This document shows, piece after piece, positions 19,192-30,755 of a stretch of 30,755 nt of DNA. The notes beneath the pieces are model-generated. The model saw only the letters and a program-made list of their open reading frames with translations, was not told the DNA's origin and ran no database searches. The translations under genes and the position numbers were made by a program. Origin of the DNA: a virus; the IMG/VR virus record IMGVR_UViG_3300036820_000650, positions 1-30,755 of that record. One strand, written 5' to 3'. Every line of letters starts with the position of its first letter. The first letter of the stretch is position 1.

Positions 19192-19401
19192 GTGACCGTA
19201 TCCAGGGAACTTACCAAGAAAGAGGAAATGGTCCTGATTTTGATTGCCAAGGGCCGAAGTGACCGGGATATAGCAACTGAGATGGCCATAAGCATTAACA
19301 CGGTAAAGAACTACGGTTACAGCATCAGAAACAAACTTGGGATGGATGATCGTGTCAGTATGGCCATGCACGCGGTCAGAGTGGGTTTGATAATACCATG
19401 A
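19192..19401 (+). CDS. Stand-alone LuxR-type helix-turn-helix protein
   Basis: GTG 19192 follows GAGGTGA with a 4-base spacer. Nearly all of the 69 residues form a LuxR/GerE-type domain: LTKKEEMVLILIAKG, then the helix-turn-helix SDRDIATEMAISINTVKNYGYSIRNKLG, then DDRVSMAMHAVRVGLI. There is no receiver or ligand-binding domain. It should bind DNA, perhaps as a dimer, and might regulate phage or host transcription. It lies in the tail operon between D and an HNH gene that overlaps its stop (ATGA), so these two may have arrived together. Target unknown. Confidence 0.8.
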   Translation: MTVSRELTKKEEMVLILIAKGRSDRDIATEMAISINTVKNYGYSIRNKLGMDDRVSMAMHAVRVGLIIP

Positions 19402-19859
19402 AACGACCAAAACCAAAGATATGGCCAGATCATGTAATTGCCAGCGCAACTAAGCGCAGAGGAGTGAAACGCTCTCCTGAAATGTGTAAGAGGATGTCAG
19501 AGGCCCACATGGGTAAGAAGCTCCCGCCTCGGTCACCGGAATGGTGCTCAAAAATATCCTTAGTACATCGAGGAATGGGGCATTCTGAAGAAACAAGAAA
19601 AAAGCTTGCTCTGATAAACACCAAGCATGGAAATGCACGACGCTCTGTCCGCTATAGGGCTTGGGAGCGCGCAGTTAAAGTGAGAGATAACAGAACGTGT
19701 AGATATTGTGGTAAGGCTGATCTCAAAGGCAGAAATTGTCAAGCACATCACATTCTTGACTATGCAACTCATATCGAAGAGCGCTACAACGTAGACAATG
19801 GGCTGACTTTATGTGTCTCCTGTCACGCCAAAGAACCTAAAATTAAGAAAGAGACGTAA
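19398..19859 (+). CDS. Free-standing HNH homing endonuclease with NUMOD3 motifs
   Basis: The 153-residue basic protein carries NUMOD3-like repeats (KRSPEMCKRMSEAHMGKK at about 24-41 and SEETRKKLALIN at 63-74) and a C-terminal HNH domain: CRYCG (Cys 101, 104), QAHHILDYA (His 117, 118), NVDNGLTLCVSCHA (Asn 131 or 134, Cys 139 and 142). These are the DNA-binding and catalytic elements of group I homing endonucleases. It would cut a target in related phages that lack the gene and promote its own spread. The ATG overlaps the stop of the LuxR-type gene. Confidence 0.82.
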   Translation: MKRPKPKIWPDHVIASATKRRGVKRSPEMCKRMSEAHMGKKLPPRSPEWCSKISLVHRGMGHSEETRKKLALINTKHGNARRSVRYRAWERAVKVRDNRTCRYCGKADLKGRNCQAHHILDYATHIEERYNVDNGLTLCVSCHAKEPKIKKET

Positions 19860-21194: not shown

Positions 21195-22457
21195 ATTCCA
21201 GTAGTCATCCCATCTAATCAACTGCCAGCGGCCACAGGCACGCCACAGACAGTTCCGGTCCAGCTTCCGAACCCGACATTCGTCAACGATTCGGATGGGC
21301 TCGATCCTACATCCGTGCTTGCGGATATGGTTTCCTATTTCCAGACGGAAGCCGATCGCACTCTTTATCCAGCCCAGCTCGAACAGCTTCTCATCAATCT
21401 TTACGCCTATCGCGAGATCCTTGTCCGGAACAATATTCAGTACTGCGGAATGCAGAACCTGGTTGCCTTCGCTGTTTATCCCATGCTGGATTATCTGGGA
21501 GCCTTCTACGATCTTCCACGTTTCCCTGAGCAGCCGGCAAGCTGTACTCTTCAATTCACATTAGGAGCGGTTCAAGGAAGCTCCGTATCCATCCCAGCCG
21601 GAACGAACATAGGTACAACTGATGGGCTATTCATCTTTACTACCACCGTGCTCCTGGTCATATCCGCGGGTGCCCTGTCGGGCGTGGTATACGCAACCTG
21701 CACAACCTACGGTGATGCAGCCAACGGATATGCCCTGGGTGCAGTCAGTGTTCAACTTCCCGCCCTGACACCTACGATGACGGTCACAAACACGACCATC
21801 ACCGCAAATGGCGCCGCAGAGGAAACAGACAATCACTATCGCTCGCGCATCCAGGCGGCGCCAAACAATCTGACGACGGCCGGCCCTTCAGGTTCCTATC
21901 GTTCCCTAACCCTCGATGTCTCCCCCACAATTGTTGACGCCCAGGTCGTGACTCCGGTTCCTGGTACTGTGCAGGTTTACGTGCTGGCAGGCCCTGCAAC
22001 GGTTCCGTTGGGTCCTCCCAACAATACGGGCCTCCCTACGGCTGAACTCCTCACAGCGGTCAACGATGCGCTATCAGCGGCCGACGTACGACCACTCTGC
22101 GATACAGTTCTAGTCTCGCCGGTCGCCGAAGTCGACTATCAGGTTTCAGGCTCGATCACGCTTTACGCGAATGCGGACTATGCCTCTGTCGCTGCGGGCA
22201 TCAATGCCGCCGCCCAGAACCTTGCCCTGTCGCTTGCGGCAGCAGTCCAGCAGGACATCATTCTCAATCAGTGGATTACAGCCTTGAGTGTTGCAGGTGT
22301 CTACAATCTTGATATCACATTAGCAGCGCAACTAGGTGGTACGTCTCTTACGCCCGCATCCGATGGCAGCTTTCTGCTGACTTCCGGACAGTGGGCGAAT
22401 CTAACATCATTTACACCTGTGATTGTGTTTGGTACGCGGTTGCAGCCGGGGAGCTGA
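21195..22457 (+). CDS. P2 J-like baseplate protein (predicted ATT start)
   Basis: The body is clearly gpJ-like: [119 protein letters not shown] and [13 protein letters not shown]. The first standard start is GTG 21315, but residues upstream of it ([19 protein letters not shown]) already look like the J family N terminus. The frame is open back to TGA 21189, and the best start is ATT 21195, three bases after GGGGTGA, giving 420 residues. A separate ATG at 21161 with GGGAGG opens an 18-codon frame that would need a +1 shift into this one. The body call is firm; the start is not. Confidence 0.8.
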
Positions 22458-22461
22458 CTTG

Positions 22462-25400
22462 ATGAAAAGACTAGCTCTATTTTTCTTTCTGTTGACAGGC
22501 TTACTGGCGCACGCCCAAACAACCCAGATCCTGGGGACGAACATCAGCTATGCGACAGGTGGAACGATTACAGGTCAGTTCTGTATGTCACCTACGGATG
22601 GTTCAGGCAATCCCATCAACATCACAACTTCAAACGGCCAGGGACTTGCTGGCAATGTTCCTACCTGCTTTGCCATAGTTAATGGCACGTTGGCCAGCAA
22701 CGCGATTGTGCCCGATGTTCAGCTTTCGAATCCGATCGACTTCTGCTACAAGACGACGATCTCTGATCTTTCCGGTGGCCCGGTTCTCAACACTTATCCA
22801 TGCTTGCAGCCGACCGGCTCAACCTGGAATTTTAATACGTACGTGCCTGCGGCGTTGCCCCTGACTTATCAACTTCCACAGTTCTATACCAATAGTGTTC
22901 AAAACCCGAATCAACTCCGGTTGAACATCATCGGCAGCACCGGGATTAATGCTGTCTACGGTAGCGGAGGAAATGTCACACTCAGCTTGACTGGGGGTAC
23001 AGGTGGTATTGATTGGCTAGGCGATTGGAGCAGCTCAACATCCTATGTATCCAGCAACGGCGTTTCCTACGAGGGCTCGTCTTACTACTGCTTGCAGGCC
23101 AATACAAACGTCGTGCCCACAAACACGACTTACTGGGCATTGATCGCTCAGGCTGGCGCCACGGGACCCACAGGTCCAACCGGGCCAACTGGCCCTACAG
23201 GTGCAACAGGCCCGACCGGATCAACGGGCTCGACGGGTCCAACTGGCCCAGCTGGTCCTACGGGCCCGACCGGGGCGACTGGTGCAACCGGGGCAGCCGG
23301 GAGTGCAGCAACAATAGCCGTACAAAGTACCACAACTCTTGCCCCCGGTGACGCTGCGACAGTCGTCAATAATGGCTCAAGTTCGGTAGCCAACTTAGCC
23401 TTTGGTATTCCACAGGGAGCTACTGGTGCGACCGGCGCAACTGGGGCGGCAGGAAGCAATGGCGCCGCGGCAACGATTGCTGTGCAGAGTACAACAACCC
23501 TTGCTCCAGGAGATCCTGCCACAGTTGTTAACAATGGTACGAGTTCAGCAGCAAATCTTGCTTTTGGCATCCCTCAGGGAGCAACGGGAGCCACAGGCCC
23601 GACGGGGCCAACGGGGCCAGCAAGCTCACCGGGCGGAGCCACCACGAACGTCCAGTTTAACAATTCTGCGGTGTTCGGCGGAGACTCAACCTTCACATTC
23701 AATTCGACGACTAAGGCCGTAGGTGTTTCGAGCCTGCTCACAAACAACATTCTTGGCACGAGCGGGGGATTGACAATCTCCGCAGCCACTGGCCAGCAGA
23801 CGCATCTGAACAACGTCACTGCGTTCGGCATGTCCGGAGATAACTGGACCACGAATGAGCTGAACACTTACATCTATGTGGACGGTGTGAATGGCGCGGG
23901 CATTAATCAGGACCCGGTCGCGTGGTCGTCTTCTGGAGCCTACCCATGGTGCCAAGAGGTCAGCTACTCTGGCGGCAACTATCTCATGACCCAAGTGGGC
24001 GGGAATGTGGGTACAACACCCGGCACTAATTCGCAGATATGGTATCCCATTACCAATGGGTCTATTCCAACGCAACTTGATTGCGCATTCTACACGGCTG
24101 CAGCCGAAATCGTGTCTGGCACGGGAACTGTGGCTAGCGGTGGAGTGGGCTCGACGATCATTCTTGGAACCGCTGGACGCTACTACACGAACATCGGGCT
24201 GACGGAACCAACGGTCTCCTCGGCTGTTTCCCCGGTCGTCAACATCACCGGCCCCGGACGGACGCAGGCAACGATCTACCAGGGATCATCCAAGGGAGAT
24301 GGATTACCAACCTTGTACGTTCCCGACACCCTAACGCCCTATGCCTTCTCAACCTTCAAGTGGTCAGGATTCACGGTAGATGCACATTATCAAGCTTGTC
24401 CGGCAGTCGCAATCCACGGTGCACAGCAATTTACAATGAACGATATCCTGATCGCGGATGCGACAGACGGCTGCGATCATGAAATTGAGCTAGGAGACGC
24501 GTCAAGTCAAGAATATGGGTGGGTATTTGAGCCGGATTTGAATCTTGTGGATCTGGGAACCTTCGAGGGATTCGGTTCTGGCGCGTATGGTGCCTGCACA
24601 GTTTCCGGTGGAACGCCGTCCTGCACGGTTACGGCTGGAGGCAGTGGCTATGGCTCAGCAGACACAAAGGTGATTCCCGGAGGCACTTCTGATTTCGGCA
24701 AGCCATGCAATACGAATGGTACATGGACGGCAACAATCTCCGGAGGAGCCATTACGGCCATCACGATCTCTGGAGCGAGTGGCTGCGTTGCCCCGGTCTA
24801 TCCGATCATCTTCAGCGGGCCGAACATCAACTACGGCTACAAGCTCTCTAACGTCTCAGACGCAAAGAATCTGCGCAACATGACCGATGGTGGGGTGGGT
24901 TGGTTGGCTGGGATGTGGATCAACGATATAGACAACGCCATTAAGGTCTACAACTATCACCCGGAAGCTGTCGTCGAAGGCGTCTATCAATCTGGCATCG
25001 CTGATTTCTATTCCCTGCAATGCGACACCGTTTTTCAATACTGCGTTGACTTTGAAGGTGAAGGCATCACCAATCTCTATTCCCCGGAGATCGAGTGGAA
25101 CAACGCTAACATGACGGCATCTCGGGACTTCTACATAGGCAACGCGGCCACCAACGGCGTACCCGGATACACCGCGCCGATGGCAATTAATGTATTTGCT
25201 ACCAATTGTCTCAATCAAGCTCAACAGCCTGGATATGCACACTGGGATTCAAACCAAGGTGTAATCGATTCGGTCGTCGGTGGTGACGAAGCGCAGTTGC
25301 CCAACTTTGTGCATGTTCAAAACGATATGTACTGCAATCAGGTATATGCGGGTGGTAGCCCGAACCCAATCACCCAAATAACGCCGAGTGTCCTTGGGAA

Positions 25401-26034
25401 CAACTTCACCATCTCGAACGGCTTTGTGGGTGCAGGGTGGAATTTTGGTGTCACGCCTGGAGCGCTGGGTGGGAGTGGGGCCGGCTCAAGCGTAATGAAT
25501 CTGAGCCAATACAACAGTTATGGCGCGATCGGACAATATCAATTCAACTTCCAAAATCCCACCGCTTCGACCAGCGGAAATGACCAAAACTCGCCCATTG
25601 TCGGTATATGTGGAACTTACTACGGCAGCTCAATTTCGAATCCTTCCTGCTCCACACTGCAAACAGCTTTCTCCGGAACCTCAAGCACTCTCGAATTCGC
25701 GGGAGCGGGGGCATATTCCTTCGATCACAACATTAGCGCCCCAAACATTCCCACCGTGATTGCCAACACGACTTTTACCAGCGCAACCACTACTGTGAGT
25801 GCCAACACGTGCAGCGCAAGTGCTGTAACGGTGACTATGACCGGGGTAGCTACCTCAAGCGTTTTCGTGATCACGCCGAGCACGGACGTAAGTGGATCGA
25901 ATGGATGGGGAGCCAACGGCGGCCTAGTGATTGATGCGTGGCCAACTTCGAACACGCTCAACTATAAGATTTGCAACCAGTCCGGCTCCAGTGTGACTCC
26001 GGCAGCTGTGACCTGGAACGTTGGTGCCAAATGA
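22462..26034 (+). CDS. Collagen-like tail fibre with Sec signal peptide
   Basis: GGGGAG lies 8 bases before ATG 22462, giving 1190 residues. It begins [20 protein letters not shown], a standard Sec signal peptide with an AHA|Q cleavage site. Next are a Cys-containing N-terminal domain (FCMSP, TCFA, FCYK, PCLQP), a carbohydrate-binding-like module near 182-229 ([30 protein letters not shown]), a Gly-X-Thr collagen-like run (about 231-282), two copies of an [15 protein letters not shown] module, and a region near 460-945 that looks like a beta-helix fibre or depolymerase ([23 protein letters not shown]). The end ([40 protein letters not shown]) is probably a receptor-facing domain. It stands between J and I. 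An enzymatic role is not shown. Confidence 0.75.
23155..23307 (+). repeat. Collagen-like Gly-X-Thr repeat region
   Basis: This stretch encodes about 50 residues of GATGPTG-type triplets, the collagen-like triple-helix motif, with low DNA complexity. Shorter GATGATGAAG and [10 protein letters not shown] runs recur after each of the following ATIAVQ modules (to about 23625). Confidence 0.85.
23308..23580 (+). repeat. Two copies of [15 protein letters not shown] module in fibre
   Basis: Copies begin at 23308 and 23470, 162 bases (54 codons) apart. Both encode [15 protein letters not shown] followed by a variable VVNNG segment and [12 protein letters not shown]. The proteins agree closely while the DNA differs at many third positions, so the duplication is not recent. 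Such modules link collagen-like segments in bacterial collagen-like proteins. Confidence 0.8.
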
Positions 26035-26741
26035 TCCTGCCGCTACTCCTCGGCCTGCTCATTGGACAGTATGCGATCCCCGGCCACACCGGAGCTTCGA
26101 GCGTGGCTCCGGTTCCAGTACCTACAGCAAAGACCTGCACTGCCCAGCAGAACAGCTCGGATACGGTGACCTGCACGTTTAATACAAATCCGGTGGCGGG
26201 CGAAACGGTTCTAGTGTATGCCGTAACCTACGTAAGCCTGGCAGATACCTTGGCAGTTACCGATTCTGCTTCTAATATCTACACTGCAGTAGCGACCATC
26301 CATACGCCAACCTATTTAGCGAATTATCAGACTCAGATGTTTTACTTTGGGCCACTGACATCCTCGATCAGCACCATCACAATGACTGCGTCAGGGATCA
26401 CCACTCCTACCGCATTGGTGCTTAACGCTGATACATCGACCGGGCTGGCAAGATCCGGACTGGATGGCTCTCCCTGCTATGCGGAGGGCAACTCTGTGGC
26501 GACAGCATCATGTGGATCGGCGCTCACCACGTCGGCAGCAAACGACCTGCTCTTCTGCGGAGCACAAAATGGATCGGGCAACACGATGACTCCAGAGGCA
26601 GGCTGGACTGCAGGTTCAAGCCCGAACGGATACACGCTAAATCAGTATTATGTAGAGCCCTCAGCCGGCAGCGTTACGCCGACGATCAGTATTAGCCCTA
26701 GCGCAGCTCTAACGATGACGTGTGCGGCCTTTAATCCATGA
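26031..26741 (+). CDS. Putative exported Ig-like adhesion protein
   Basis: ATG 26031 overlaps the fibre stop (ATGA). The 236 residues start [18 protein letters not shown], a short hydrophobic segment without the usual positive start, so it may be a weak signal peptide or anchor. Then come [74 protein letters not shown], cysteine pairs ([20 protein letters not shown]) and a final [19 protein letters not shown]. The whole reads as an extracellular Ig-like beta domain with disulfides. It may be a fibre accessory tip or a secreted protein. Position between two fibre genes suggests the adhesion module. Confidence 0.5.
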
Positions 26742-26780
26742 CAGACGACGATCTCACTACTGATACACATTGATCAAGAA

Positions 26781-27986
26781 ATGAGTACTGCTCCCACACT
26801 TCGGCCGCCATCGTCAATCAATGATGAGCGCACGCAAATTCACCTAGGCTTGTCTGCTCGTCTGTTTCCTCCGTTTGCAATTGCCAATGGCAAACTTGAC
26901 TTGACTGATTTGCTGATCCGCACGGTGACTGCGGCTCCGCAGTCTGTGCTTCCATATCTGCTTTGGGAGTTCGATGTTTGGGATATTGCGGCGCCGATGC
27001 TCGCCTTCGGTGTAAGTTCAATGGAATTGATTCAGAACGCGATCTATCTTCATCAAATACAAGGTACGGTCTACTCAATTCAATATGCGCTCGAATTAAT
27101 GGGCCTGACCAATGTTGTGCTCTATGAAGGTGCAGCTCTCTGGGGAGGCGCCTATCCGGTTAGCCAGGCTTGGGCTGTCTTTCGCGTATCCTTTGCCGAA
27201 GTCAGTTCCCTCAATCCAACCCAGCTGGCGCAGGTTACACAGGTTATCAATTTCCTGAAGCCGGCACGCTGTCTGCTCGACGCAATCATTGTGGGCTCGG
27301 TCTATTTTGCCGATGACGAGATCCCCACTATTTCAGGCAACACGGCGACACTGACGGCTGGCGCAGCGCCGTCAGGCGGTTTGCTGTTCTACGTCAATGG
27401 CATTCTTTGGACACAATACATTGACTACATCCTGGTGGGAACTACGGTAACGTTCATAAATACGTTGCCTTCAGGAGCAATCGTCAGAACTTGGTACGCT
27501 TACAACGTCGCTCCGACGAACATTTTCTATGTTCTGCCCACAGGCACAAAGAATGGCTCAAATCTTGTCTTCAACTTATCACTTGTGCCAAGCCCGGCAA
27601 ACTCGCTAGAGTTTTATCGCAATGGCCAATTACTGACTTACGGAGTGGATTTCACGCTCTCGGGCGCAATTGTGACTCTGTCGGGTAGCGGAGGCGGCGC
27701 GGCTCCGATCTCTACAGATGTGCTTTTCGCTACCTTCCGGATCGGCACAGATCCGTTGCTGTCTTCAATTGGCTTTGCGTCAGATGAGACGCCATCGCGT
27801 GTAGGAGGGAATACCTATTCGCTGCTTAACAATCCCAATCCGAGTCAGAGTTTGAGGCTGTTTCGAAATGGCGCCTTACTTGTGCTGGGAACGGACTACA
27901 CTATATCGACAAATCAAATAACGATCACGTCGATCGCCATTCAGCCCACGGATGTGCTGTTGGCATACTACCGTTTCACGATCTAA
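26781..27986 (+). CDS. P2 I-like tail protein with three C-terminal beta modules
   Basis: The N-terminal half (residues 1-180) matches the P2 I family: QIHLGLSARLFPPFAIANGK, LLIRTVTAAPQSVLPYLLWEFDVWDIAAPMLAFG, IYLHQIQGTVYSIQYALELMGL, YPVSQAWAVFRVSF and INFLKPARCLLDAII. This part links baseplate and fibres. Residues about 184-241, 250-320 and 338-401 repeat a beta module centred on FYVNGILWTQYIDY, FYRNGQLLTYGVDF and LFRNGALLVLGTDY, each followed by two strands and a Y-rich end. The extra modules probably extend the attachment point for fibres. The ribosome binding site is weak, and 39 bases separate it from the previous gene, including an 11-codon frame at 26738 without support. Confidence 0.75.
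   Translation: MSTAPTLRPPSSINDERTQIHLGLSARLFPPFAIANGKLDLTDLLIRTVTAAPQSVLPYLLWEFDVWDIAAPMLAFGVSSMELIQNAIYLHQIQGTVYSIQYALELMGLTNVVLYEGAALWGGAYPVSQAWAVFRVSFAEVSSLNPTQLAQVTQVINFLKPARCLLDAIIVGSVYFADDEIPTISGNTATLTAGAAPSGGLLFYVNGILWTQYIDYILVGTTVTFINTLPSGAIVRTWYAYNVAPTNIFYVLPTGTKNGSNLVFNLSLVPSPANSLEFYRNGQLLTYGVDFTLSGAIVTLSGSGGGAAPISTDVLFATFRIGTDPLLSSIGFASDETPSRVGGNTYSLLNNPNPSQSLRLFRNGALLVLGTDYTISTNQITITSIAIQPTDVLLAYYRFTI
27330..27983 (+). repeat. Three-fold beta-module repeat in I-like protein
   Basis: Three protein-level copies (about 60-70 residues each) share F-x-NG-x-L-x-x-x-x-DY followed by strand-turn-strand. They start near 27330, 27528 and 27792. DNA identity is low, so it is an old duplication. 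Confidence 0.7.
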
Positions 27987-28001
27987 GGGAGGGTACTGAC
28001 A

Positions 28002-30755
28002 ATGCGCAAGGCACTCCTGCTGCTCTCCCTGGTCTTTGCTGCCATCCCTGGGCTAGCACAAACGCAGATTGATTTGACTACCCAGGTAAAGGGTATTCTG
28101 CCGCCGGCGAATTTTGCCAATTCATCTCTTACGAATACGACCGTTCTTTACAACAACTACTACCAAGGCATCTATAGCGCGACCGTTACTTACTCCCAAG
28201 GCCAGATGGTCACGTCTTCTGGCACTACGTATATATCTCTCATCAACAGCAATCTCAATAACACCCCAGCTAGTTCGCCTTCTGATTGGGCTGGAGTCGC
28301 GAGTGGTGAGGGAGGCAATGTTACCTCTTGCTCCCTGACGACCAATACCCTCCCGCTTGCCACCGGCGCGGGCGCCATATGCAACTCACTCGTAACAGAT
28401 ATCTCAGGCGTGCTGAACTACTCGGGCACAAACGTTACCTTTCCTAAGTTGACTATAGGTAGTGTGGGCTCGGGTAACTACGTGATCGTAGGGACAGACA
28501 CACTTGGCAACCCTGGCACACAGTATTTCAGTTCTAATCCTTCCTATGGGGTTACTGTCGATGCGACTGGCTTCTACGGGCCAGGGGTCAATGCAGGTGG
28601 AGTAACTGCTGGGGATCTGGTAGTTAGCGGAAATACAAATCTAGGTGAACTGGGCAACGGTGTCCCGGGTTCCCCAATCTATGTGAACCAATACGGTGGC
28701 GGGGCCATTGCCATGCAGTTCAATGGTGGGGTTTACGTCACGGGAGCCATCGAACTTTCAAATGGCTTTGGGACTTCCGGACAGGTGCCAGTCTCTGGCG
28801 GTCCCAGTGGGGTGGCAGCTTGGGGCACTGTTGGGGGCAGCACGACCTATCCCGGTGCTGGAGTAGCAAACTCTACAGGAAGCGCCTGGGCGACTTCCTA
28901 CACGGTGGGCACAGTTGCCAATGATCTTGTCCAACTGAATGGATCCGCGGCCCTCCCAGCCGTATCCGGTGCGAATCTGACAGCCATCACAGCGGCGAAC
29001 ATATCTGCCGGCACGGCAGGAATCAGTATTTCAGGCTCGGCCGCCAATCTGGCCGGATGCACAGGCTCGACGGCCGGTGATGTTTGTTACTGGAATGGCA
29101 GCAGTTGGGCTCGCCTGGCCGGGAACACAAGCGGAACTCTTTATCTGCAGGAGAACGGCTCAGGGAGCCCTTCATGGGCAGCGTCGAGCACAGTTTATCC
29201 CGGAGCGGGCGTAGCCAACTCCACGGGCTCGGCCTGGGCTACTTCCTATACAGTCGGAACTTCAGCAAGCAATCTTGTGCAGTTGAATTCAGGTGCCCAG
29301 CTCCCAGCCGTATCCGGTGCGAATCTGACGAGCCTTACGGCCGCAAATATCTCCAGTGGCACGGCCGGAATCAATATCTCAGGTAATGCGGCCACTGCGA
29401 CACAGCTCACAGGTTGTGCGGGCTCGACGGCTGGGGATTTCTGCTACTGGAATGGATCAGCCTGGACTCGACTGGCAGGCAACACAAGTGGCACGCAGAT
29501 ATTGCAGGAGACATCGTCAGGAACGCCTTCATGGGCTTCGGGAACAGCCTTTACATATCCAGGCGCTGGGGTGGTTTGCTCGACGGGCTCAGCTTGGTGC
29601 ACGTCCTACACGGTGGGCACAGCAGCAAATGATCTAGTTGAGTTGAACGGAAGTGCCCAACTTCCCGCTGTGAGCGGGGCATTGCTGACAAATCTTCCAG
29701 CAGCGAATCTGACCGGGACAGCATCGGTCAACACGACCGGCAGTGCTGGGAGCCTGTCTGCTTTTATCGTTCCAAGAGAAACTACAGTTGCATCTGCCGC
29801 GACGATCACGCCGGGGGGTGCAGGTGGCTTTATCCATATAACTGGCACAGCCACAGTTACAACCATCACCGTTCCATCCGGATGCACTTCAACGAGCATC
29901 GTGTGTATTTATCAGATGCTTCCTGACAATGGTTTCAGCGTCGGAACTGGCGGCAATATTGATGTTGGCGAAACTATCCCAATCAACACGCCTACCCTCA
30001 TTACCTGGGATCAGAATAACGGAACATGGTATTTGGGTAATTTTGGTAATGTAACTACTGGCGTGAGTTCCTTGACCTCAGGTGTTATATCTGTTGCAAC
30101 AAGTCCCTATTCCATTGGCAACTCTTTGCTCTCAGATAGTGGCAGCGCGCTAACCTACTCGGGCTCAAGTGGTCTAGACCTAACAGGAAGCGGTGCCGGG
30201 ATCACCATTTCAGGAGGCTCGGCTCCCGGCTATTACACGCTTGGTACAGGCACAGCATCATTGCCCAGCCTGCCTGCTGGATCTTATGGCGAAGTGGGTT
30301 CGCTTTCCGGTGGAACTCCTTATCTTCGCCAACATGCGAATACTGCGACTGCTGGCTTCGAGGAGTGGGCAGCTCCGGCCACAGAGTACGGCGTGAATGT
30401 AACTCAATCGAGTTTTGTTCATATTCCATTCCACATGGATTCGGTAACTGCTTCTGTTGCGATATATCCGCTTAATTATTATCTTTCGATTGCTTTCCCG
30501 CAGACAGCCGGTCACTTCTCCAAATTGCAGGGCTATTACGATGGCGGTGGCTGTCCGACTCCGCCGTCAATCAATGTGGCCAATATCACGCAGGCCACAG
30601 TAGGAACCGCCCTAGCGTTGAATGCAACCGGCCTAGCGCAACAATCAGAAACCTTGTCATGGAATGCGGGTGATGAAGTAGTGATCGAGATCTCCACAGC
30701 CGGCAGTTGCTCCGGTTCCTTTCACACGGTCAGTGCGGACGGGCTCATACCATGA
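28002..30755 (+). CDS. Repetitive tail fibre with Sec signal peptide
   Basis: A GGGAGGG ribosome binding site precedes ATG 28002; TGA falls on the last base of the window, so the gene is complete at 917 residues. It begins MRKALLLLSLVFAAIPGLA|Q, a clear Sec signal peptide. A carbohydrate-binding-like module (YSATVTYSQGQMVTSSGTTY, NNTPASSPSDWAGVA) lies near 53-103. Three repeats of about 116-120 residues start YPGAGVANSTGSAWATSYTVG near residues 283, 399 and 519 and include CYWNGS-W-RLAGNTSGT in the first two. A shaft-like beta region follows, and the end (795-917, VTQSSFVHIPFHMDSVTAS, ISTAGSCSGSFHTVSADG) is a likely receptor-binding domain. It is probably the main host-range fibre, but an enzyme or secreted adhesin is possible. 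Confidence 0.75.
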   Translation: MRKALLLLSLVFAAIPGLAQTQIDLTTQVKGILPPANFANSSLTNTTVLYNNYYQGIYSATVTYSQGQMVTSSGTTYISLINSNLNNTPASSPSDWAGVASGEGGNVTSCSLTTNTLPLATGAGAICNSLVTDISGVLNYSGTNVTFPKLTIGSVGSGNYVIVGTDTLGNPGTQYFSSNPSYGVTVDATGFYGPGVNAGGVTAGDLVVSGNTNLGELGNGVPGSPIYVNQYGGGAIAMQFNGGVYVTGAIELSNGFGTSGQVPVSGGPSGVAAWGTVGGSTTYPGAGVANSTGSAWATSYTVGTVANDLVQLNGSAALPAVSGANLTAITAANISAGTAGISISGSAANLAGCTGSTAGDVCYWNGSSWARLAGNTSGTLYLQENGSGSPSWAASSTVYPGAGVANSTGSAWATSYTVGTSASNLVQLNSGAQLPAVSGANLTSLTAANISSGTAGINISGNAATATQLTGCAGSTAGDFCYWNGSAWTRLAGNTSGTQILQETSSGTPSWASGTAFTYPGAGVVCSTGSAWCTSYTVGTAANDLVELNGSAQLPAVSGALLTNLPAANLTGTASVNTTGSAGSLSAFIVPRETTVASAATITPGGAGGFIHITGTATVTTITVPSGCTSTSIVCIYQMLPDNGFSVGTGGNIDVGETIPINTPTLITWDQNNGTWYLGNFGNVTTGVSSLTSGVISVATSPYSIGNSLLSDSGSALTYSGSSGLDLTGSGAGITISGGSAPGYYTLGTGTASLPSLPAGSYGEVGSLSGGTPYLRQHANTATAGFEEWAAPATEYGVNVTQSSFVHIPFHMDSVTASVAIYPLNYYLSIAFPQTAGHFSKLQGYYDGGGCPTPPSINVANITQATVGTALALNATGLAQQSETLSWNAGDEVVIEISTAGSCSGSFHTVSADGLIP
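28848..29750 (+). repeat. Three tandem repeats in distal fibre
   Basis: Repeat units begin at 28848, 29196 and 29556, spaced 348 and 360 bases. Each opens with TATCC and encodes YPGAGV-STGSAW-TSYTVGT, then LV-LN-GA-LPAVSGA. The first two are complete; the third lacks the CYWNG part. Several DNA stretches are nearly identical (for example CCAGCCGTATCCGGTGCGAA in units 1 and 2), enough for homologous recombination. Confidence 0.85.

Follow-up and report, generated by a model that had tools for sequence, protein, structure and literature searches.

Taking the evidence as a whole, the two large fibre genes at the 3' end of the window (the whole stretch of 30,755 bases of a virus record that was analysed here) are best explained as late-operon fibres or spikes that are exported by Sec and join virions upon lysis, a reading to which we assign a probability of roughly 0.5. 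Judged from the sequences, the window fibres are very probably exported by Sec, and the odds that they dock on the virion after export appear about even. The more general proposal is that assembly of some tailed phages is divided between two compartments: the particle would be built in the cytoplasm and the receptor-binding fibres, exported by Sec and bonded by disulfides, in the periplasm, and the two would be joined only at lysis. This we put forward tentatively, at somewhat less than even odds.

The window contains SbcC-like, DnaB, head protease, neck, sheath, tape-measure and P2-like baseplate genes and is a fragment of a myophage. Its 3' part comprises, in order, the genes for J, fibre 1 (22462-26034), a small protein (26031-26741), I (26781-27986) and fibre 2 (28002-30755), and because the intergenic gaps amount to 4, -4, 39 and 15 bp, this run looks like a single operon. 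Both fibre genes are thus found in a late tail-operon position together with baseplate genes, and the same holds for their counterparts in the related locus L154. The features of this region are as follows:

21315..22457, + strand: baseplate J protein (PHROG phrog_6), which served as the operon neighbour for finding relatives
22462..22515, + strand: predicted signal peptide of fibre 1, with the predicted cut before QTT
22516..26034, + strand: mature fibre 1, with a Cys-containing N-domain, a collagen-like stalk (approximately residues 231-282) and a long C-terminal part; matches to tail fibre PHROGs and Pfam Collagen; 21 Cys
26031..26741, + strand: small Cys-rich protein, whose hydrophobic N-terminus lacks Lys and Arg and is borderline, below the rule of the signal scorer
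26781..27986, + strand: gpI-like tail protein with a C-terminal extension (Pfam Tail_P2_I), located between both fibres
28002..28058, + strand: predicted signal peptide of fibre 2, MRKALLLLSLVFAAIPGLA, with the predicted cut before QTQ
28059..30755, + strand: mature fibre 2, with repeated stalk modules containing paired Cys; the repeats have a match in a tail gene of phage vir555 that bears a signal

The probable true start of J is an ATT codon at 21195 (MPVVIPSNQ..., which aligns with the ATG-start MPVIVPNSS of L154); neither ATG nor GTG nor TTG is available as a start in 21195-21315. At 19398-19859, the D and V baseplate genes are separated by an inserted gene that by eye resembles HNH endonucleases. 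The product of 26031..26741 is possibly a third exported or anchored protein, and no homology was found between it and the Binatota spikes described below. The fibre-type assignment comes from PHROG tail-fibre and Pfam Collagen matches only in the case of fibre 1, and from stalk repeats only, with no firm family, in the case of fibre 2. Since the gpI extension is the only further fibre candidate in the window, a virion role is likely for at least one of the two.

The sequence-only reading had ascribed to both fibres a textbook three-part signal followed by QT, and this description is confirmed by the signal scorer, the ribosome-binding sites and the start codons. Fibre 1 (1190 aa, ATG at 22462) has an N-terminal Sec/SPase-I-type signal peptide before QTT, and fibre 2 (917 aa, start at 28002) begins with MRKALLLLSLVFAAIPGLA, followed by QTQI. 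A Shine-Dalgarno-like GGGGAG or AGGGAGG is present upstream of both starts, and the preceding genes end 4 and 15 bp before them. Our in-house rule-based scorer evaluates a basic n-region, an uncharged hydrophobic core of 8-16 residues and a small-x-small site, all of which are present in both fibres; of eight well-known signal peptides of E. coli it recognised seven, and among the 25 called genes of the window it picks only fibre 1 and fibre 2. Over both strands, 11 of the 657 open start codons reach a score of 7.5, and five of these correspond to the N-termini of the two fibres with alternative starts. The observed score is attained by 3 of 5000 residue shuffles for 22462 and by 98 of 5000 for 28002, hence composition accounts for part of the score of fibre 2. 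At about 12-13 residues, both hydrophobic cores are shorter than one would expect of a membrane anchor.

The further claim that these signals are genuine and selected for export is well supported by their recurrence on unrelated bodies at the same operon slots, by a signal-less homologue that begins with the mature domain, by the fast but constrained divergence of the signal region and by the Cys-rich character of the mature proteins. L154 (found, like L153, with the W protein as query) is the closest relative of the window that we found, sharing D, V, W, J and I in the same order, with 63% identity in J. Its gene directly after J starts with MKRIAIFLFLILSVITCFA followed by QTQVDPTY, and its large gene after I (with one small ORF in between and a phage lysozyme next) starts with (V)KRILSLTSLWLFVAAAFAQA followed by QTGVCLNN. 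Neither of the window fibres gives a tblastn match to the fibre bodies of L154. Both slots are therefore occupied by different bodies, and yet each retains a predicted export signal ending before Gln-Thr, which we regard as the strongest single argument for selection acting on the signals.

The repeats of fibre 2 led to a third unrelated genome, vir555, in which three consecutive tail-end genes carry signals. In the corresponding region (L107:13766-18783; vir555, BK063671) of this podovirus-like genome, whose record gives Methanomicrobiales as the host, four consecutive tail-end genes have hydrophobic or signal-like N-termini. Apart from these repeats and from L141, in which the weakly matching gene has no signal, no direct relatives of the window fibres were found in the IMG/VR scans or among phage and plasmid records. 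None of the 12 fibre and spike genes of eight cultured phages related by J has a signal.

Relatives of J came both from IMG/VR contigs and from MAGs; the latter are titled Candidatus Binataceae, Candidatus Binatus or Deltaproteobacteria, with two further ones from Acetobacteraceae, and most of the hosts read as Binatota. Those Binatota elements that were examined are prophages of the Mu-like type; they encode a terminase, portal, protease and capsid (named partly by eye), and because of these genes we reject the interpretation of these elements as tailocins. Their tail operon consists of J, I, a protein of ~215 aa, a short signal-less fibre of ~190 aa and one giant protein of up to ~1340 aa. 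In the related loci, scores of at least 6.5 are reached by 55 of 312 ORFs downstream of J, compared to 12 of 642 ORFs upstream of it and none of the 94 J genes themselves. A family of signal-bearing spikes comes next after the short fibre in 45 of the 54 loci that extend at least 500 bases beyond it. The mature proteins start with a sequence like Q(Y/F/N)..IPN(Y/F).G.GAG..FR..IN, and a signal peptide precedes this conserved domain in 52 of 53 members (44 by the rule, with the cut near the domain start, and 8 by eye). The sole signal-less member, L029, occupies the same operon slot, and in it the mature domain follows directly after ATG-SGT, with the start overlapping the preceding frame. That this homologue begins near the predicted cut gives indirect support to cleavage and translocation of the other members.

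Several Binatota members contain the beta-helix PF12708 and one contains a Laminin_G_3 domain. The model of the L021 spike (mean pLDDT 67) is best aligned to phage tailspikes, namely LKA1 gp49 (Z 26.5), phi297 gp61 (25.7) and the depolymerase KP34p57 (25.2), and the body of L029 resembles a Klebsiella phage tail spike. The fold of the conserved N-domain is modelled with confidence only in part, and no PDB match was obtained for it at E 0.001; in the class of G006 (an Acetobacteraceae MAG) the N-domain has one weak match among 385 genomes. In a related phage an extra signal-peptide protein is encoded between the D and V tail genes (L033:1691-3127). An integral-membrane gene that by eye appears glycosyltransferase-like often follows the spike (L011, L017, L018, L021, L037) and is a possible partner in receptor modification.

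The sequences themselves show the signals and their repeated occurrence, a mature start that is conserved and, in the Binatota relatives, a tailspike fold; from these observations we infer the following route. Real late-operon tail fibres or spikes would be made with a cleavable Sec signal peptide and exported by Sec during the late phase, signal peptidase I would cut before the Gln, and folding and trimerisation, with formation of disulfides, would take place in the periplasm or outside. Lysis would then mix the compartments, so that the fibres could meet the particles built in the cytoplasm and, in this post-lysis step, dock on them as receptor-binding fibres or depolymerase spikes. Tailspikes of P22 can join finished particles in vitro.

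The Cys content offers a clue to the compartment. It amounts on average to 2.1% in the signal-bearing spikes vs 0.63% in the upstream proteins and J, and to 1.6% in the fibres of the window and L154 vs 0.66% in the control fibres (p 2e-5). Four near-invariant Cys residues are present in the N-domain of the signal-bearing forms and none in L029, and L019 lacks two of them, which were lost together. In fibre 2 of the window, one repeat holds both Cys residues of a pair and its sister repeats hold neither (CSTGSAWC vs NSTGSAWA). These patterns would fit disulfides formed outside the cytoplasm. However, Cys richness alone is weak evidence, as the body of the signal-less L029 is Cys-rich too, and the argument is further weakened by the finding that a disulfide can occur in an extracellular contractile particle without export of the fibre (PMC13314943).

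We favour the joining of virions after lysis over a free role, in which the exported proteins would act away from the virion as adhesins or depolymerases, e.g. opening the host exopolysaccharide before release, or masking or trimming receptors against superinfection; the sequences leave room for both, and we consider the free role rather unlikely. A bacterial exported tailspike-like enzyme does exist, namely WceF of Pantoea, which is encoded in an EPS cluster and has a Tat signal (PMC7949094), and one chromosomal copy of the Binatota spike (L122:8763-12200, signal-bearing) lies within an EPS locus that includes Poly_export and Wzz genes. Moreover, the Binatota spike need not be on the virion, as these phages encode the separate short signal-less fibre. 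Yet a conserved N-domain followed by a variable body is typical of docked spikes, the signal-less L029 homologue shares the operon slot of the exported forms, and the window shows no further obvious fibre unless the gpI extension is counted.

Signal-bearing spikes are also found away from phage genes (L121, L122, L123 and L124). These copies demonstrate that exported-type spikes can occur on host chromosomes in the absence of a linked tail module, a point against the favoured docking on the virion. In four genomes a Mu-like element has no linked spike beside its tail module and a copy is present elsewhere, which is compatible with action in trans. The Mu-like head-tail elements without a linked spike in L013, L025, L004 and L009 seem, in pairs of different genomes, to have the same host genes at their ends; they may have become fixed and domesticated, their spike gene lying elsewhere.

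It is improbable, in our view, that the signal is vestigial or serves as an N-terminal docking or trimerising segment of fibres that remain in the cytoplasm, even though this is the normal place of assembly of tailed-phage fibres and the baseplate proteins encoded by the same late operon are cytoplasmic. In close Binatota pairs, Ka of the signal region is mostly 0.1-0.4 and Ks mostly 0.2-0.9, with Ka/Ks below 1, and Ka of the first 60 mature codons is mostly below 0.1. The signal sequences diverge fast, while their hydrophobicity and small-x-small sites persist; such fast change under physical constraint is the behaviour of signal peptides and speaks against both a vestige and a docking role. 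The same is indicated by the signals on unrelated bodies at both slots of L154, and by the expectation that an uncleaved export signal would target the fibre to the membrane. The sequence-only reading had also considered retention of the segment as an attachment tail, and this is disfavoured, as the segment is variable in sequence and conservation sets in near the predicted cut.

Still less probable is the possibility that these genes are not fibres but host-derived exported surface proteins carried as cargo of lysogenic conversion. The chromosomal copies L121:5656-8619 and L123:6176-9394, both signal-bearing, do share a conserved host neighbourhood, adjoining rpe- and glnB-like genes in two genomes. 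However, the chromosomal copies are scattered inside the family tree of the phage spikes and therefore look like captured phage spikes, those in L121, L122 and L123 being possibly domesticated; an origin of the fibres from host exported proteins, suggested earlier, is thus unsupported. Further points against the cargo explanation are the tight late-operon position, the tailspike fold, and the occurrence of the spike in exactly the same six of 297 sampled genomes of the phylum that possess J and the tail module, a coincidence due largely to linkage. Finally, although the calls rely on a rule-based scorer and 2% of the shuffles of the 28002 N-terminus reach its score, it is highly improbable that the hydrophobic starts reflect chance or wrong start codons, given the ribosome-binding sites at both starts, the recurrence in three unrelated phage groups and the lack of signals among the 12 control fibres.

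Tail fibres set the host range of phages, and it is assumed that they are completed in the cytoplasm; the spikes LKA1 gp49, phi297 gp61 and KP34p57, on which, to our knowledge, no export signal is known, are likewise assumed to assemble there. The signal-bearing spikes are similar to these tailspikes and depolymerases in the beta-helix spike fold, the tail-operon position and the variable body behind a conserved N-domain. In the open-access literature we found no report of Sec signals on virion fibres of tailed phages, and the closest precedents for exported fibres are host proteins. WceF of Pantoea stewartii is a tailspike-like trimer with an export signal, which retains a phage-like head domain and acts on exopolysaccharide (PMC7949094), but it is encoded by a host EPS-cluster gene with a Tat signal and without a phage tail operon. 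The window fibres, in contrast, belong to a phage tail operon, and only the chromosomal copy L122 is located in an EPS locus. The MAT fibres of Bdellovibrio are phage-fibre-like trimers, in which a conserved domain of ~130 aa comes immediately after a signal peptide (PMC10769870); they differ in being host predation adhesins, with 21 paralogues and no phage, many of which have an S74 chaperone. No S74 match was found in Pfam for the fibres, but not every MAT fibre has S74 either. Among late phage proteins, the exported endolysin Lys44 of fOg44 has a true, cleaved Sec signal peptide (PMC6116005), although it is a lysis enzyme and not a fibre. Maintained export signals on fibres would add a second assembly compartment, or else a secreted role, to the biology of tailed phages, and would hint at a possible origin of exported host proteins that resemble tailspikes, such as WceF and the MAT fibres. 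If assembly indeed proceeds in two compartments, the periplasmic machinery could fold the fibres, and even an unlinked chromosomal gene could supply them.
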